From assembly GCA_030147925.1 (NCBI GenBank), contig JASBUK010000091.1, positions 1 through 45,627 on the forward strand: 45,627 nucleotides of DNA, read 5' to 3'. Under the pieces are notes generated by a model. It made no database searches and was not told the origin of the DNA. It saw only the letters and a list, made by a program, of their open reading frames with translations. Position 1 is the first letter of the stretch, and the number at the start of each line of letters is the position of its first letter. The stretch comes from Trueperaceae bacterium. Its GTDB lineage: Bacteria; Deinococcota; Deinococci; Deinococcales; Trueperaceae. Of the stretch, positions 2,326-45,600 are shown in pieces. Position numbers and translations under genes: made by a program.

Positions 2326-2530
2326 GTTAAGTGGTGAGTAGTTGGTGGTTGGTGGTAGGTGGGAAAAACGTTTTTTAGAAAGCATTCCTACAAAGTTAGG
2401 TGTGAGGGGTTATGTCAATTCTCAATTACCCGATTCTTGCCCCCTCTAGAAAACCCCTGGTTTCTACTTCCTACTAACCACTTTCTACCTTTTACTCAAC
2501 ATCAATTTGGGAAGCCTTCACCACCTAGCT
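2326..2530. repeat. Intergenic MITE-like repeat, copy R1
   Basis: The left part is a run of GTGGTGAGTAGTTGGTGG-type words. The right part is the complementary TTTCTACTTCCTACTAACCA type, ending in CAATTTGGGAAGCCTTCACC. The same words recur at 4990-5268, 6919-7091, 26984-27222 and 30655-30735. The left terminus is not recognisable here. It lies in the divergent intergenic region between the aldo/keto reductase and the NAD(P)HX repair gene. Confidence 0.6.
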
Positions 2531-4989: not shown

Positions 4990-5268
4990 AAGTGAATGAT
5001 GGGTAGTTAGTAGTGAGTGGTGGGTAGTAGGTAGAAAAAAGCATTTCTAGGGGATTTACTCAATTTTGTGTATGCAACCTCTCCAGCAGTCTATCACCAA
5101 AGAGCTGGGCAAACCAGTTGAGGGCTTTTTTCCAATTCGGTTGGGAAAGCGCCTTTGAGTTTGACCGATTTCTTGAGGCTGTAATTTAAGGATTCAATAA
5201 CGTTGGTGGTGTAGATTGCCCCATTTTCTAAAACCACCTCCCACTTCCTACTTACCACTTACCCTTCT
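4990..5268. repeat. Composite intergenic repeat, copy R2, with IS256 remnant inside
   Basis: The left arm (about 4993-5035) is a GGGTAGTTAGTAGTGAGTGG-type sequence. The right arm (about 5231-5267) is the inverse CACTTCCTACTTACCACTTA type. Between them lies a 3' remnant of an IS256-type transposase gene. The arms use the same vocabulary as the MITE-like copies elsewhere. The stretch sits between thrB and trpE, which converge. Confidence 0.55.
5060..5222 (-). pseudogene. IS256-family transposase C-terminal remnant
   Basis: Reading the minus strand from 5222, one frame gives IYTTNVIESLNYSLKKSVKL followed by KGAFP, the C-terminal signature of IS256 (Mutator-type) transposases. After an internal deletion a second frame gives NWKKALNWFAQLFGDRL and stops at 5060-5062, matching the family's last helix. 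The first segment is the same protein sequence as the remnant at 45250-45600. The two therefore derive from one element type and this copy carries an internal deletion. Confidence 0.7.
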
Positions 5269-5271
5269 CTA

Positions 5272-6708
5272 CTAACTTAGCCCTTCTATGGCCATTTCAA
5301 CGGCTTTGCGGAGTGCCGCTAGTTTGTTAAGGGATTCGTTGTATTCAAATTCGGGGTCGGAATCGGCTACTACGCCGCCACCTGCTTGCAGATGAATTTT
5401 GCCCTTGGTAATCACAAAGGTTCGCAGTGTAAGGGCCATATCCATTGCCCCGCTTACGCTCAGGTAGCCAAAAGCGCCGGCATAGGGGCCGCGACGAGTG
5501 GGCTCGAGCTCCTCAATAATTTCCATGGCCCGAATTTTGGGCGCGCCGCTGGCCGTGCCCATCGGCAAAGTGCTGGCCAAAGCATCTAAGGGCGTTTTGT
5601 CTTTGGCAAGTTCGCCGCTTACCGTCGAAACGATGTGCATGACATGGCTGTAGCGCTCGATACGCATGAGGTCTGTCACCTTCACACTGCCAAACTTGCA
5701 GACCCGGCCCAAATCATTGCGGCCCAAATCCACCAGCATGATGTGCTCGGCACGCTCCTTTTCGTCGGCAAGTAGTTCTTCGGCCAGTGCCTGGTCCTCG
5801 TCGGGAGTAGCTCCCCGGGGGCGCGTACCGGCAATTGGCCGCGTCTCCACGTAACTGCCGTCACTGCTAACCAAGCTCTCCGGGCTGCTAGCTACCAGCG
5901 TCACCGGGCCAAGGTCCAGATAACCCAGATACGGACTTGGGTTGATAGTGCGCAAGGCACGGTAAAGCGCAAAGGGATGCACGCCTAACTCAGCACTGAG
6001 TCGCTGACTCGGCACCACCTGAAAGACGTCACCAGCATGAATATAGTCAACCGCCCTGGCTACCGCCGCCATAAAACCTTCCCGGCTGAAATTGCTCTGA
6101 AATTCAACCCTGCGCCCGGCCCGGTCTCCCGGCACACCCGGCAGAGGCCCACGCAAACGTTGATAGAGCGTTTCAACCAGTGCATTCGCCCTTGCTATGT
6201 CGGCTTCATCATCGACTTCGGCGGCTACCACAATAAACAAACGGTGTTTGAGATGATCAAAGATAATCAGCGCTTCGGGTTCAATAAAAAGCAAATCAGG
6301 GATATTTAATTCGTCAGGATTATCGTCAGGCAGGTTTTCATAAAGCCTGATCAGGTCATAACTGGCATAACCCACCGCCCCCGTCCAAAAGTCCGGCAGC
6401 GCCGGGTCATGCTGCGCCTCGCGAACGGTCTGATCCCAGAGAACCTGCAAGGGGTCGGCAGATTCAAAGGTCTCCACATTTTCTGCGGTGGTGATTTTTA
6501 CTTGTGAACCTTTGGCTTCGATACGCCGGCGCTCGCCCGTACCGATAAAAGAGTAGCGTGCTAACGACAGGCCCTGTTCGACGCTTTCAAGCAAAAAGGC
6601 AGGATGACCGGCCACCTTTAAATAGGCAGTCAACGGCGTCTCTAAATCGGCAAGGATTTCTTTGTAAACGGGTTTAATAGCGGCACGTGATGCAGTTTTT
6701 ACAATCAA
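5272..6708 (-). CDS. trpE: Anthranilate synthase component I
   Basis: Converts chorismate to anthranilate with the glutaminase TrpG, the first step of tryptophan synthesis. LLES at 39-42 is the tryptophan feedback-binding motif. The chorismate-binding domain contains GDVFQVVPSQRL, YVETRPIAGTRPRG, DLGRNDLGRV and GAPKIRAMEIIEELEPTRRG, all characteristic. The 478 residues are normal for a stand-alone subunit. The start is TTG (TTG ATT GTA), supported by a GAGGG Shine-Dalgarno six bases upstream. No trpG or other trp gene lies beside it. About 400 bp of upstream non-coding DNA holds an inverted repeat and a MITE-like element. Confidence 0.95.
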   Translation of the reverse strand: MIVKTASRAAIKPVYKEILADLETPLTAYLKVAGHPAFLLESVEQGLSLARYSFIGTGERRRIEAKGSQVKITTAENVETFESADPLQVLWDQTVREAQHDPALPDFWTGAVGYASYDLIRLYENLPDDNPDELNIPDLLFIEPEALIIFDHLKHRLFIVVAAEVDDEADIARANALVETLYQRLRGPLPGVPGDRAGRRVEFQSNFSREGFMAAVARAVDYIHAGDVFQVVPSQRLSAELGVHPFALYRALRTINPSPYLGYLDLGPVTLVASSPESLVSSDGSYVETRPIAGTRPRGATPDEDQALAEELLADEKERAEHIMLVDLGRNDLGRVCKFGSVKVTDLMRIERYSHVMHIVSTVSGELAKDKTPLDALASTLPMGTASGAPKIRAMEIIEELEPTRRGPYAGAFGYLSVSGAMDMALTLRTFVITKGKIHLQAGGGVVADSDPEFEYNESLNKLAALRKAVEMAIEGLS

Positions 6709-6893: not shown

Positions 6894-6918
6894 GTTTCTC
6901 AACTTTGTCTAATAAAAC

Positions 6919-7091
6919 GGTGGTGTACCACCAGTAGTGAGTGGTGGGTAGTAGGTAGTTTGTAGGAGAATCTCCACTCTCCCCATTCCCTAAAAAACCC
7001 AGGATCGAGGAATGTGGAGCGGGGAGCGAAGAGCCAGCTTACTCTATTCCCTTATCCTCGTTCCCCTCAACACCCAATTTGGGACACCTTC
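6919..7091. mobile_element. MITE-like element with 8-bp target duplication, copy R3
   Basis: The element is 173 bp, beginning GGTGGTGTACCACC and ending CAATTTGGGACACCTTC. The termini form an imperfect inverted repeat (GGTGGTGTACC against GAAGGTGTCCC). It is flanked on both sides by AATAAAAC (6911-6918 and 7092-7099), an exact 8-bp direct repeat as expected for a target-site duplication. The interior holds the GTAGTGAGTGGTGGGTAGTA words shared with other copies. It has no coding capacity. It lies between trpE and fabI. Confidence 0.75.
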
Positions 7092-7106
7092 AATAAAACT
7101 GCTTTT

Positions 7107-7901
7107 TTAGTCTTCGCTTGGTTCTAAAAACATGCCAATGGCATGAAAACCGGCGTCTACATAGATGGTTTCCCCGGTAATGCCGCCACCCAGTTGGTCT
7201 GCAATAAGTGACAGGGCCAAACCGGCGACTTCTTCTTGGGTGATATTGCGTTTGAGCATGGACTGGGCACCGGCTTTTGAGTACATATCACCAAAACCGG
7301 CAATACTCCGCGCGGCAATGGTTCGTACAGGCCCGGCACTAATGGCGTTTACGCGTACACCCTGAGGGCCTAAGTCATAAGCTAAAAAGCGTACGCTGGC
7401 CTCTAAAGCCGCCTTGGCCACACCCATCATGTTGTAGTGCGGCACTACGCGCTCGGCTGCTAAGTAGCTCAGGGTGATAATGCTCCCGCCTGCGCTCATC
7501 AGCGGCTGCGCCCGCTGCGCTATGGCTACCAGTGAGTATGCTGAAACATCCATGGCAGTGTGCCAGTCACTACGCTGGGTCTGATAAAAGGGTGCTTCAA
7601 AAGTAGTCGGCGGGGCATAAGCTACTGAATGCACGATGAAATCAAGCGTGCCAAAGTTCTTCTCCAGGGTATTAAACACAGCATCGAGTTCATCGTCTTT
7701 GCTGACGTCGCAAGCCATTAGCAGCGGGTCCTGGAAATCCTTAGTCAGCTTTTCTATGGTTTCTTTAAGGCGTTCGCCCTGATAGCCAAAGGCTAGTCTG
7801 GCCCCGGCCTGATGCAGCGTTTCGGCAATCGCCCAGGCGATAGAACGCTTGTTGGTAACACCAAAAACAATGCCTTTTTTACCCTTTAAGTCAATCAACA
7901 T
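7107..7901 (-). CDS. fabI: Enoyl-[acyl-carrier-protein] reductase (NADH)
   Basis: Last reduction step of fatty-acid elongation and the triclosan target enzyme. At 264 residues it has the FabI SDR fold. The N-terminus shows GIVFGVTNKRSIAWAIAETL, the atypical FabI nucleotide-binding loop. The catalytic residues Tyr146, Tyr156 and Lys163 (LSYLAAERVVPHYNMMGVAKAAL) fall at the same numbers as in the E. coli enzyme. AYSLVAIAQRA and SAGPVRTIAARSI are further family motifs. The ATG is preceded by GAGGAG. It is followed on the same strand only after a gap and the MITE, so it is probably monocistronic or co-transcribed with the upstream regulator gene, 64 bp away. Confidence 0.96.
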   Translation of the reverse strand: MLIDLKGKKGIVFGVTNKRSIAWAIAETLHQAGARLAFGYQGERLKETIEKLTKDFQDPLLMACDVSKDDELDAVFNTLEKNFGTLDFIVHSVAYAPPTTFEAPFYQTQRSDWHTAMDVSAYSLVAIAQRAQPLMSAGGSIITLSYLAAERVVPHYNMMGVAKAALEASVRFLAYDLGPQGVRVNAISAGPVRTIAARSIAGFGDMYSKAGAQSMLKRNITQEEVAGLALSLIADQLGGGITGETIYVDAGFHAIGMFLEPSED

Positions 7902-16295: not shown

Positions 16296-16317
16296 AGGGG
16301 TGACCAAAGTCACCCCT
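16296..16317. terminator. Hairpin after glmM, possible terminator
   Basis: AGGGGTGAC (16296-16304), loop CAAA, GTCACCCCT (16309-16317) is a perfect 9-bp stem 16 bases after the glmM stop. No T-run follows, so it is an atypical intrinsic terminator at best. It separates two convergent transcripts (glmM and the CHAD gene). Confidence 0.45.
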
Positions 16318-16328
16318 GATACTGAATC

Positions 16329-16387
16329 TGATTAATTCCTGAACGTTATGAAAGGCACTCGGTTCGATTCTTCTTGTTCCACTTACA
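16329..16387 (+). repeat. Dispersed repeat R7, copy A
   Basis: Starting at GATTAATTCCTGAACGTTAT, this stretch recurs almost unchanged in inverted orientation at about 29485-29541. The shared part is about 55 bases with only a few mismatches. It lies between glmM and the CHAD gene. No coding potential was seen. Confidence 0.7.
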
Positions 16388-26983: not shown

Positions 26984-27222
26984 GAAACTGTCCCAAATTG
27001 GGTGTTAAAGGAAAAGTGAAAAGTAAAAAGAGGAAAGTAAAAAGTAAGTGGAAAGTAGTTGGTAGGAAGTAGAAGCCCGGGATTTCCCAGTGGTGGCATT
27101 CAGACAATGGGAATTTGTCAGTTGACCACAAACATCTAAAATTAACTCGCTGAGGGCTTTCCAAAAATGCCTTTCCTACCGACCACCTACCATTAACCAC
27201 CTACTACTTTTGCTACACCGCC
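26984..27222. mobile_element. MITE-like element, copy R4 (inverted orientation)
   Basis: The left end GAAACTGTCCCAAATTGGG matches the reversed right end of R3, and the right end GCTACACCGCC matches the reversed left end of R3. Flanks CCTCATT and CTTCATT agree at 6 of 7 positions and suggest a decayed target duplication. The interior (239 bp in all) contains AAGTAAGTGGAAAGTAGTTGG words shared with R6. It lies inside the inositol operon between the binding-protein and permease genes. Confidence 0.65.
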
Positions 27223-28230: not shown

Positions 28231-28265
28231 TTCACGGCTCCTTCCAAAGTTGGAATTTCAAAACG

Positions 28266-28355
28266 GCGGTGTACCACAAATTGTGTATTGTGGTTTGTGA
28301 ATTATGTCAGGGGCGTTAGCTGGCAGTTTCAACACACACAATTTGGGACACCTTC
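28266..28355. mobile_element. Short MITE-like element, copy R5
   Basis: Begins GGCGGTGTACCAC and ends CAATTTGGGACACCTTC, the same two termini as R3 but only 90 bp apart. The flanks TCAAAAAC and TCAAAACT are nearly identical. It is an internally deleted member of the family, between the binding-protein gene and its promoter, so it becomes part of the 5' leader of the inositol operon. Confidence 0.65.
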
Positions 28356-28455
28356 TCAAAACTACAAAGACTAGTCTAGGGCTTGCCAGAACCGACTTAC
28401 AGAGCATCACCTCCGCTAAAGGAATCTCAGCTATCGTATTGGTTTAGTGTTTCGA

Positions 28456-29436: not shown

Positions 29437-29545
29437 TGATACCAATTCCGTTTAAAAGTCGAATCCTATAAGGCTTTTAAATGTGAGTAGAACGAGAAGA
29501 ATCGAACTGAGTGCCTTTCATAACGTTCAGGAATTAATCGGGCTC
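29437..29545 (-). repeat. Dispersed repeat R7, copy B
   Basis: GAGTGCCTTTCATAACGTTC and its surroundings (about 29485-29541) are the reverse complement of 16329-16387. The left part, ATACCAATTCCGTTTAAAAG, recurs as a shorter match in reverse at about 22068-22090 (ATACCGATTCCGTTAAAAAG). The 223-bp gap between the regulator and the second iolC consists largely of this element. Confidence 0.65.
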
Positions 29546-29610
29546 AGTATGAGATAGTCAAAACTGATTTTGAGTAAAAAGCTAGACAATTAATCTTACT
29601 GTCAAAGAGA

Positions 29611-30663
29611 ATGAAATGGATTGTATTTATTGTGAAACATCACCTTAAACCAAAGAATTTTGATGTTCTGACTTTGGGGCGATCCTCACTTGACTTATTC
29701 TCGGAAAACTTAGGGGCGCCTTTTACACAAATCGAAAGCTTCACGGCCAGCATAGGTGGCAGCCCGATCAATATTGCTGTTGGCACGCGGCGTTTGGGTT
29801 GTAAAGTGGCTATCCTCACGGCTGTCGGCGACGATAAAGCAGGAAGTTTTTTGCGCAGTTATCTTATACGTGAGGGTATCAGCACCGAGTTCATACCAAC
29901 AAAGTTAATGGCGCGCTCGAGCTTAGCTCTGCTGGGCATAGAACCACCGGATTGCTTTCCTCTGGTGTTCTACCGCGAGAACCCCGCCGATGTGCAGCTA
30001 AGTATCGACGATGTGCAGGCTGCACCCATTGCCCAAAGCCGCTGTTTGCTGTTAAGCGGCACCTCTTTAAGCAAATCCCCTGGTCGCGAAGCGATGTTTC
30101 ATGCGGCGGAACTGGCAAAATCTTCCTCTGTAACAGTGTTTTTAGACCTCGATATCCGCCCGGACCAATGGCACGACTCCCGGGCTTTTGGCGTCAACCT
30201 CCGGGCAATCTTGCCACTGGTCGATGTCGCTATAGGCACCGAAGAAGAGGTTTACGCTACCTTGATAGATAACGACAACCCCGCCGACAGCACGGTGATC
30301 AAATCGCTTAACCAAGAGCAGCGTAGCGAGCTTAAACCTCGCATCACAAACTGGCTAAGCCAGGCCCAAAGGCCTAAGGTACTGGTGCTAAAACGCAGTG
30401 CTAAAGGAGTTAGCGTCTTTACACAGGCTCGAGACCCTCTGGATGTGCCTGGTTTTAAGGTCAGGGTCCTAAATACCGTTGGCGCGGGCGACGCCTTTGC
30501 CAGCGGTCTCATTTACGGTTGGCTGCAAGGCTGGGACTGGTTTAAGAGCGCCCGCTTAGGCAATGCCTGCGGCGCTATCGTGGTGACGCGGCATGGCTGC
30601 GCCAGCGCCATGCCCAGCTTGGCAGAGGTTATGGAGTTTATGAGCGCACAAGGTGGTTGGTAG
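29611..30663 (+). CDS. iolC: 5-dehydro-2-deoxygluconokinase (second copy)
   Basis: 350-residue PfkB-family kinase, a clear paralogue of the IolC at 17415-18449. NFDVLTLGRSSLDLFSENLG, FTASIGGSPINIAVGTRRLG, FLDLDIRPDQWHDSRAFGVN, NTVGAGDAFASGLIYGWLQGWDWFKSARLGNACGAIVV and an ending in QGGW are parallel between the two. The first dozen residues (KWIVFIVKHHL) are not conserved, so the real start may be internal. The predicted start has an AAAGAGA stretch just upstream. The last codons and stop lie in the beginning of an intergenic repeat. It precedes iolB, as in a catabolic operon. Confidence 0.9.
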   Translation: MKWIVFIVKHHLKPKNFDVLTLGRSSLDLFSENLGAPFTQIESFTASIGGSPINIAVGTRRLGCKVAILTAVGDDKAGSFLRSYLIREGISTEFIPTKLMARSSLALLGIEPPDCFPLVFYRENPADVQLSIDDVQAAPIAQSRCLLLSGTSLSKSPGREAMFHAAELAKSSSVTVFLDLDIRPDQWHDSRAFGVNLRAILPLVDVAIGTEEEVYATLIDNDNPADSTVIKSLNQEQRSELKPRITNWLSQAQRPKVLVLKRSAKGVSVFTQARDPLDVPGFKVRVLNTVGAGDAFASGLIYGWLQGWDWFKSARLGNACGAIVVTRHGCASAMPSLAEVMEFMSAQGGW

Positions 30664-30735
30664 TTGGTGGAAAGTAGTGGGAAAAACTCTACTTTTCTCT
30701 TTCTCCTTTTTACTTTCCACTTACTTTAGGACGAA
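30655..30735. repeat. Intergenic repeat, copy R6
   Basis: GGTTGGTAGTTGGTGGAAAG at the left and TTTTACTTTCCACTTACTTT at the right are inverse words, also found in R4 and R1. The element begins at the iolC stop codon and fills most of the gap before iolB. No terminal GGTGTACC motif is visible, so this is a partial copy. Confidence 0.55.
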
Positions 30736-45194: not shown

Positions 45195-45249
45195 CTATGC
45201 TGTTTGTACTAAGGTTCTCTTACCAACCAGTGGCTGGGAGTTTAATTAG

Positions 45250-45600
45250 GACAGCTACCCAACGATTGCTCAATTGTGGCGCAGGCATTGGCAAAACATC
45301 ATTCCCATTTTCGATTACCCAGCGGACGTCCGAAAAGCCATTTACACCACCAACGTTATCGAGTCCTTAAACTACAGCCTCAAGAAATCGGTCAAGCTCA
45401 AAGGCGCTTTCCCAAGCGAAGACACGCTCTTCAAAATCCTTTACCTCGCTATTGACAAGGCTTCAGAGAGATGGACCATGCCGATAGTAATAGCATTTGC
45501 ATCAAATATACCCACAGTGATGAAAGGTCTGCTGAACATCAAGCGGGGTAACAGCAAGGACAGCGTCAGAGAAGGCGAGCATGAGCTCAGGAATAAGTGA
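45250..45600 (+). pseudogene. IS256-family transposase C-terminal fragment
   Basis: Reads DSYPTIAQLWRRHWQNIIPIF and then DYPADVRKAIYTTNVIESLN, the C-terminal IS256 (Mutator-type) signature, after an in-frame stop at 45247-45249. The catalytic Asp residues upstream are missing. After SERWTMPIV the sequence no longer follows the family (usually NW and a final hydrophobic helix), so the 3' end is also altered. The same IS type left the remnant at 5060-5222. Confidence 0.75.

Follow-up and report, generated by a model that had tools for sequence, protein, structure and literature searches.

A gene-less MITE family with IS256-like ends, in part carrying a heptad-repeat cassette, in a Trueperaceae genome

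A 173-bp sequence close to the 3′ end of a fabI-like gene raised the question of whether it is a mobile element and, if so, what moves it. It lies in the 45,627-nucleotide stretch of DNA that we analysed (the window; contig C71), which is part of a genome of 2,982,247 bases (2.98 Mb) in 151 contigs from the genus' sole species among the genomes compared. The initial annotation had described a MITE-like element that has imperfect inverted ends and lies between exact target duplications of 8 bp, and all of these points were confirmed, coordinates included (Table 1). The termini are GGTGGTGTACC and, reverse-read, GAAGGTGTCCC, which are imperfect inverted repeats of each other. No ORF of at least 100 aa is listed over the element.

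Copies of the element and their target sites

We searched the genome with the two termini of the element. The right-end word AATTTGGGACACCTTC, with up to two mismatches, gave 58 matches, whereas the reversed-pattern control gave 0. At the same threshold the left end GGTGGTGTACCACC gave 34 matches and its control 21; a lone left-end match therefore means little, and left ends were counted when paired with a right end. Two-ended copies were sought in the stretches surrounding the end matches, which comprise 355,815 bases. This search identified 36 copies, in agreement with the common ends that had been proposed. Their sizes range from 68 to 251 bp, with one copy of 68 bp, 24 of 86–92 bp and 11 of 114–251 bp. 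A 91-bp element represents the canonical form. Median pairwise identity among the 24 copies of 86–92 bp is 77%, the ends being conserved and the interior variable. The consensus ends, compared as inverted repeats, are identical at 18 of 25 positions. Three 91-bp copies at different sites are identical to one another, which suggests that some insertions are probably recent. The copies lie between genes in all gene arrangements with no orientation pattern, and 3 of the 36 overlap an ORF called by a crude ORF caller. The 173-bp sequence is one copy of a gene-less small transposon that is dispersed to several dozen intergenic places.

Table 1. Features of the MITE, the heptad cassette and IS256-family sequences in the window
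Feature	Coordinates	Strand	Remarks
Heptad-cassette element	2331..2519	+	a degenerate MITE right end only (CAATTTGGGAAGCCTTC)
Heptad-cassette element	4997..5277	+	IS256-family IS fragment between the arms
Left target duplication, 8 bp	6911..6918	.	AATAAAAC
MITE, 173 bp, long cassette-bearing form	6919..7091	+	ends GGTGGTGTACC... / ...AATTTGGGACACCTTC
Heptad arm within the 173-bp MITE	6932..6965	+	GTRGTNN units
Right target duplication	7092..7099	.	AATAAAAC; fabI-like gene has its 3′ end 7 bp further on
fabI-like gene	7107..7901	-	
Cassette-bearing MITE, 239 bp	26984..27222	-	flanks CCTCATT / CTTCATT, 6/7 identical
Left target duplication, 7 bp	28258..28264	.	TCAAAAC
Canonical MITE, 91 bp	28265..28355	+	single hairpin via ~25-bp inverted ends
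Right target duplication	28356..28362	.	TCAAAAC
Short heptad hairpin	30653..30728	+	without MITE ends
IS256-family (PF00872) transposase C-terminal fragment	45247..45477	+	one stop; close to the contig end

Six copies had been counted in the window, only three of which are truly two-ended. In addition to the 173-bp element, these are the 239-bp copy, whose kinship was upheld, and a copy placed at 28266-28355 (90 bp). The latter is a real relative, but it is one base longer than stated and has an exact 7-bp duplication that had been overlooked. The three sequences listed as partial copies (2326-2530, 4990-5268 and 30655-30735) do share the interior of the element; however, they are related to it through a heptad cassette only, and their MITE ends are not intact. 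Two families, one defined by the MITE ends and the other by the heptad cassette, had been fused into one.

We also examined whether copies elsewhere might lack flanking duplications. Exact duplications flank 16 of the 36 copies, ten being 7 bp and six 8 bp long, whereas control combinations, with left and right flanks taken from different copies, had none (0 of 1260). At several further copies 6 or 7 flank bases match, as expected of older insertions. The duplications are 69% A+T compared with 49% in the flanks. For one nested copy (contig C49) an empty site was also available. This copy interrupts the core of a heptad element at ...TTCCAACGG|AGTT... and is bordered by TCCAACGG and TCTAACAG, which we read as a decayed 8-bp duplication. 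When the flanks were joined with one duplication removed, they yielded the same core sequence (...TTCCAACGG-AGTT...) as is present without interruption at other loci.

No match to the 91-bp element was present among the 110 other genomes of the phylum that were compared, and the MITE was found in none of 38 other genomes of the family. An exact 20-mer (GAAGGTGTCCCAAATTGTGT) had 0 matches in 84,980 GTDB species, a set from which the own genome was possibly excluded. The MITE family is new, of an ordinary and known kind; what is less ordinary is its heptad cargo. The family provides a clean multi-copy set of IS256-type MITEs in which insertions can be ranked by age from exact versus decayed duplications.

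Relationship to IS256-family elements

Transposases of the IS256 family (PF00872, Mutator-related), or fragments of them, occur at ten places in the genome, one of which is an intact 414-aa frame (contig C43). Contigs C21 and C23 contain IS ends with the sequence GAGGGTGTCCCGAATTTCGTGG, in each case next to a PF00872 piece. The right end of the MITE agrees with this IS end at 17 of 21 positions, a value reached in 0 of 20000 shuffles, and the left end agrees with the same IS at 13 of 21 (p about 0.002), being similar but not identical. Other IS256-type ends match the right end at 13–16 positions. The best-matching IS is split across the two contigs, and its transposase gene on C21 has an insertion carrying a stop; this insertion is roughly 90 bp long and breaks the frame at about 466–553 of locus L083. 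A related genome (G092) contains a complete IS256-family IS of 1263 bp, whose ends read GGTAGCGTTGCAGATTTTGTGT and GGTAGTGTCCCGAATTTTGTGT and which is flanked by an exact duplication of 8 bp, TTTATGAG; its transposase shares 35% identity with the C43 protein. The initial annotation had called for a full-length IS that shares the ends of the element and is flanked by an 8-bp duplication. The search answered this in two halves only: the own genome supplied IS256-family elements with similar ends that were assembled in parts, and the relative supplied the complete form, with similar ends and the exact 8-bp duplication. A contig pattern search of the genome collection for relatives of the transposase gave 35 pattern matches, none of which was confirmed.

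We consider it very likely that the family is a non-autonomous MITE and that a transposase of the IS256/Mutator type mobilises it. Such a DDE enzyme, supplied in trans, would recognise the imperfect inverted ends of ~25 bp (GGCGGTGTACCACAAATTGTGTATT, GAAGGTGTCCCAAATTGTGTGTATT), and insertion at a staggered cut would generate the A+T-rich duplications of 7 or 8 bp. The 91-bp form, which is the commonest, is probably ancestral. We infer that the mover is an IS256-family enzyme, that the route is copy-out/paste-in and that the family is presently active. IS256-family members have been reported to generate A/T-rich 8-bp duplications by this route (PMC7780238), whereas 10 of the 16 exact duplications found here are 7 bp. 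This predominance of 7-bp duplications would also fit mobilisation by another transposase family whose IS makes duplications of about 8 bp, as would our failure to find an autonomous element whose ends are exactly those of the MITE. Such a mover is nonetheless improbable. In the own genome, end matches (up to two mismatches) next to a transposase of PF00872, the family covered by the transposase search, were observed for the C21/C23 element only, and the MITE has GTGTCCC..AATT..GTGT in common with several IS256-type ends from this genome and its relatives.

Apart from this type of end, the MITE resembles IS256-family elements in its A/T-rich duplications, six of the 16 exact ones being 8 bp long, and in having family members in the same genome. 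It differs from them in the lack of a transposase gene, its size, its imperfect end match to the resident ISs and its many 7-bp duplications. A comparable case is MITEPsy1 of Pseudomonas syringae, which is likewise short and gene-less, with terminal inverted repeats, a target duplication and ends like those of a resident IS (PMC3189936). MITEPsy1 is 100 nt long, as against 91 here, has 4-nt duplications and resembles ISPsy2 (PMC3189936). ISPsy2 is a different type of IS, and the present family has more copies and includes a cassette-bearing subset. One review of prokaryotic MITEs does not mention IS256, from which single source it appears that IS256–MITE pairs may be under-described.

The heptad-repeat cassette

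The 11 longer copies, among them the 173-bp and 239-bp elements of the window, carry degenerate 7-base repeats as an internal cassette, in which (GTRGTNN)n and (NNACYAC)n arms flank a core. A search for three GTRGTNN units in a row, as in the short hairpin of the window, gave 333 overlapping matches in the ~3 Mb genome and 0 in the control. Of 70 heptad clusters sampled, a set enriched for MITE loci, ~19 had a recognisable MITE end and ~51 did not. The heptad cassette is a separate family, more abundant than the MITE.

These numbers could be taken to mean that what really moves or is selected is the cassette, the 173-bp element being a cassette with accidental MITE-like ends. We regard this as extremely unlikely. 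Most copies have no cassette, 25 of the 36 being 92 bp or shorter. Moreover, the exact duplications of the cassette-bearing copies sit at the MITE ends (AATAAAAC, GACAAATT and AAACTTC), and the cassette, which has the same orientation in ten of the long copies, is inverted in the copy on contig C114. Taken together, these three observations argue that the ends define the moving unit. The inverted cassette suggests that the MITE took up a cassette at least twice.

According to the favoured explanation, movement by an IS256/Mutator-type transposase, some copies would have gained the cassette between their ends and become mobile units of 114–251 bp, including the 173-bp element; cassette-bearing copies could move because only the ends would be needed. 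As for the cassette itself, we tentatively suggest, at somewhat less than even confidence, that it is an independent dispersed intergenic class, built of complementary degenerate-heptad arms and a core, which grows by gain and loss of units. Its capture by the MITE in both orientations would make it movable by an IS256-type transposase. The family is a natural example of a MITE with an unrelated repeat as cargo and offers a route to asking how simple heptanucleotide repeats spread.

Heptanucleotide intergenic repeats have been described as GGGAATC in Xanthomonas and GGGGAYT in Nostoc (PMC4692102). The cassette is like these in having degenerate 7-base units in intergenic arrays, but its unit is GTRGTNN, two complementary arms surround a core, and it resides partly inside a MITE. 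In Deinococcus radiodurans, 295 small noncoding repeats (SNRs) belonging to at least 9 types have a mosaic build (PMC1978522); by description, they too are many short mosaic repeats in one genome.

Arrays with a GTRGT core were also observed in nine genomes of a different family within the host's order (G048-G053, G055, G059 and G060), where the units are mostly GTRGTRC or GTRGTTC. The reversed control pattern (TGRTGNN repeats) had 66 matches in one genome (G012), perhaps representing a different heptad repeat. In the window, the IS256-family fragment between the arms of the element at 4997-5277 spans ~5049-5228 and consists of an IS end and a C-terminal part of the transposase.

Folding and other observations in the window

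An RNA function for the MITE was considered and rejected. The 173-bp element folded only slightly better than its shuffles (z -1.65) and the 239-bp copy no better (z -0.79). The stem of the 91-bp copy in the window gave z -2.93, but this stem is explained by the inverted ends of the copy, and we therefore claim no RNA role. An Rfam search of the window gave no match.

An additional inverted pair of 72 nt with 89% identity is present at 16316-16387 and 29482-29553 and contains CCTGAACGTTATGAAAGGCACTCGG. Similar sequence is also found as an interruption in heptad elements elsewhere in the genome (contigs C14 and C17), and the pair looks like another small dispersed repeat. We also observed, as a tentative pointer to Deinococcota, that the window encodes a PolA whose score against Taq polymerase is far above its scores against other solved polymerases.
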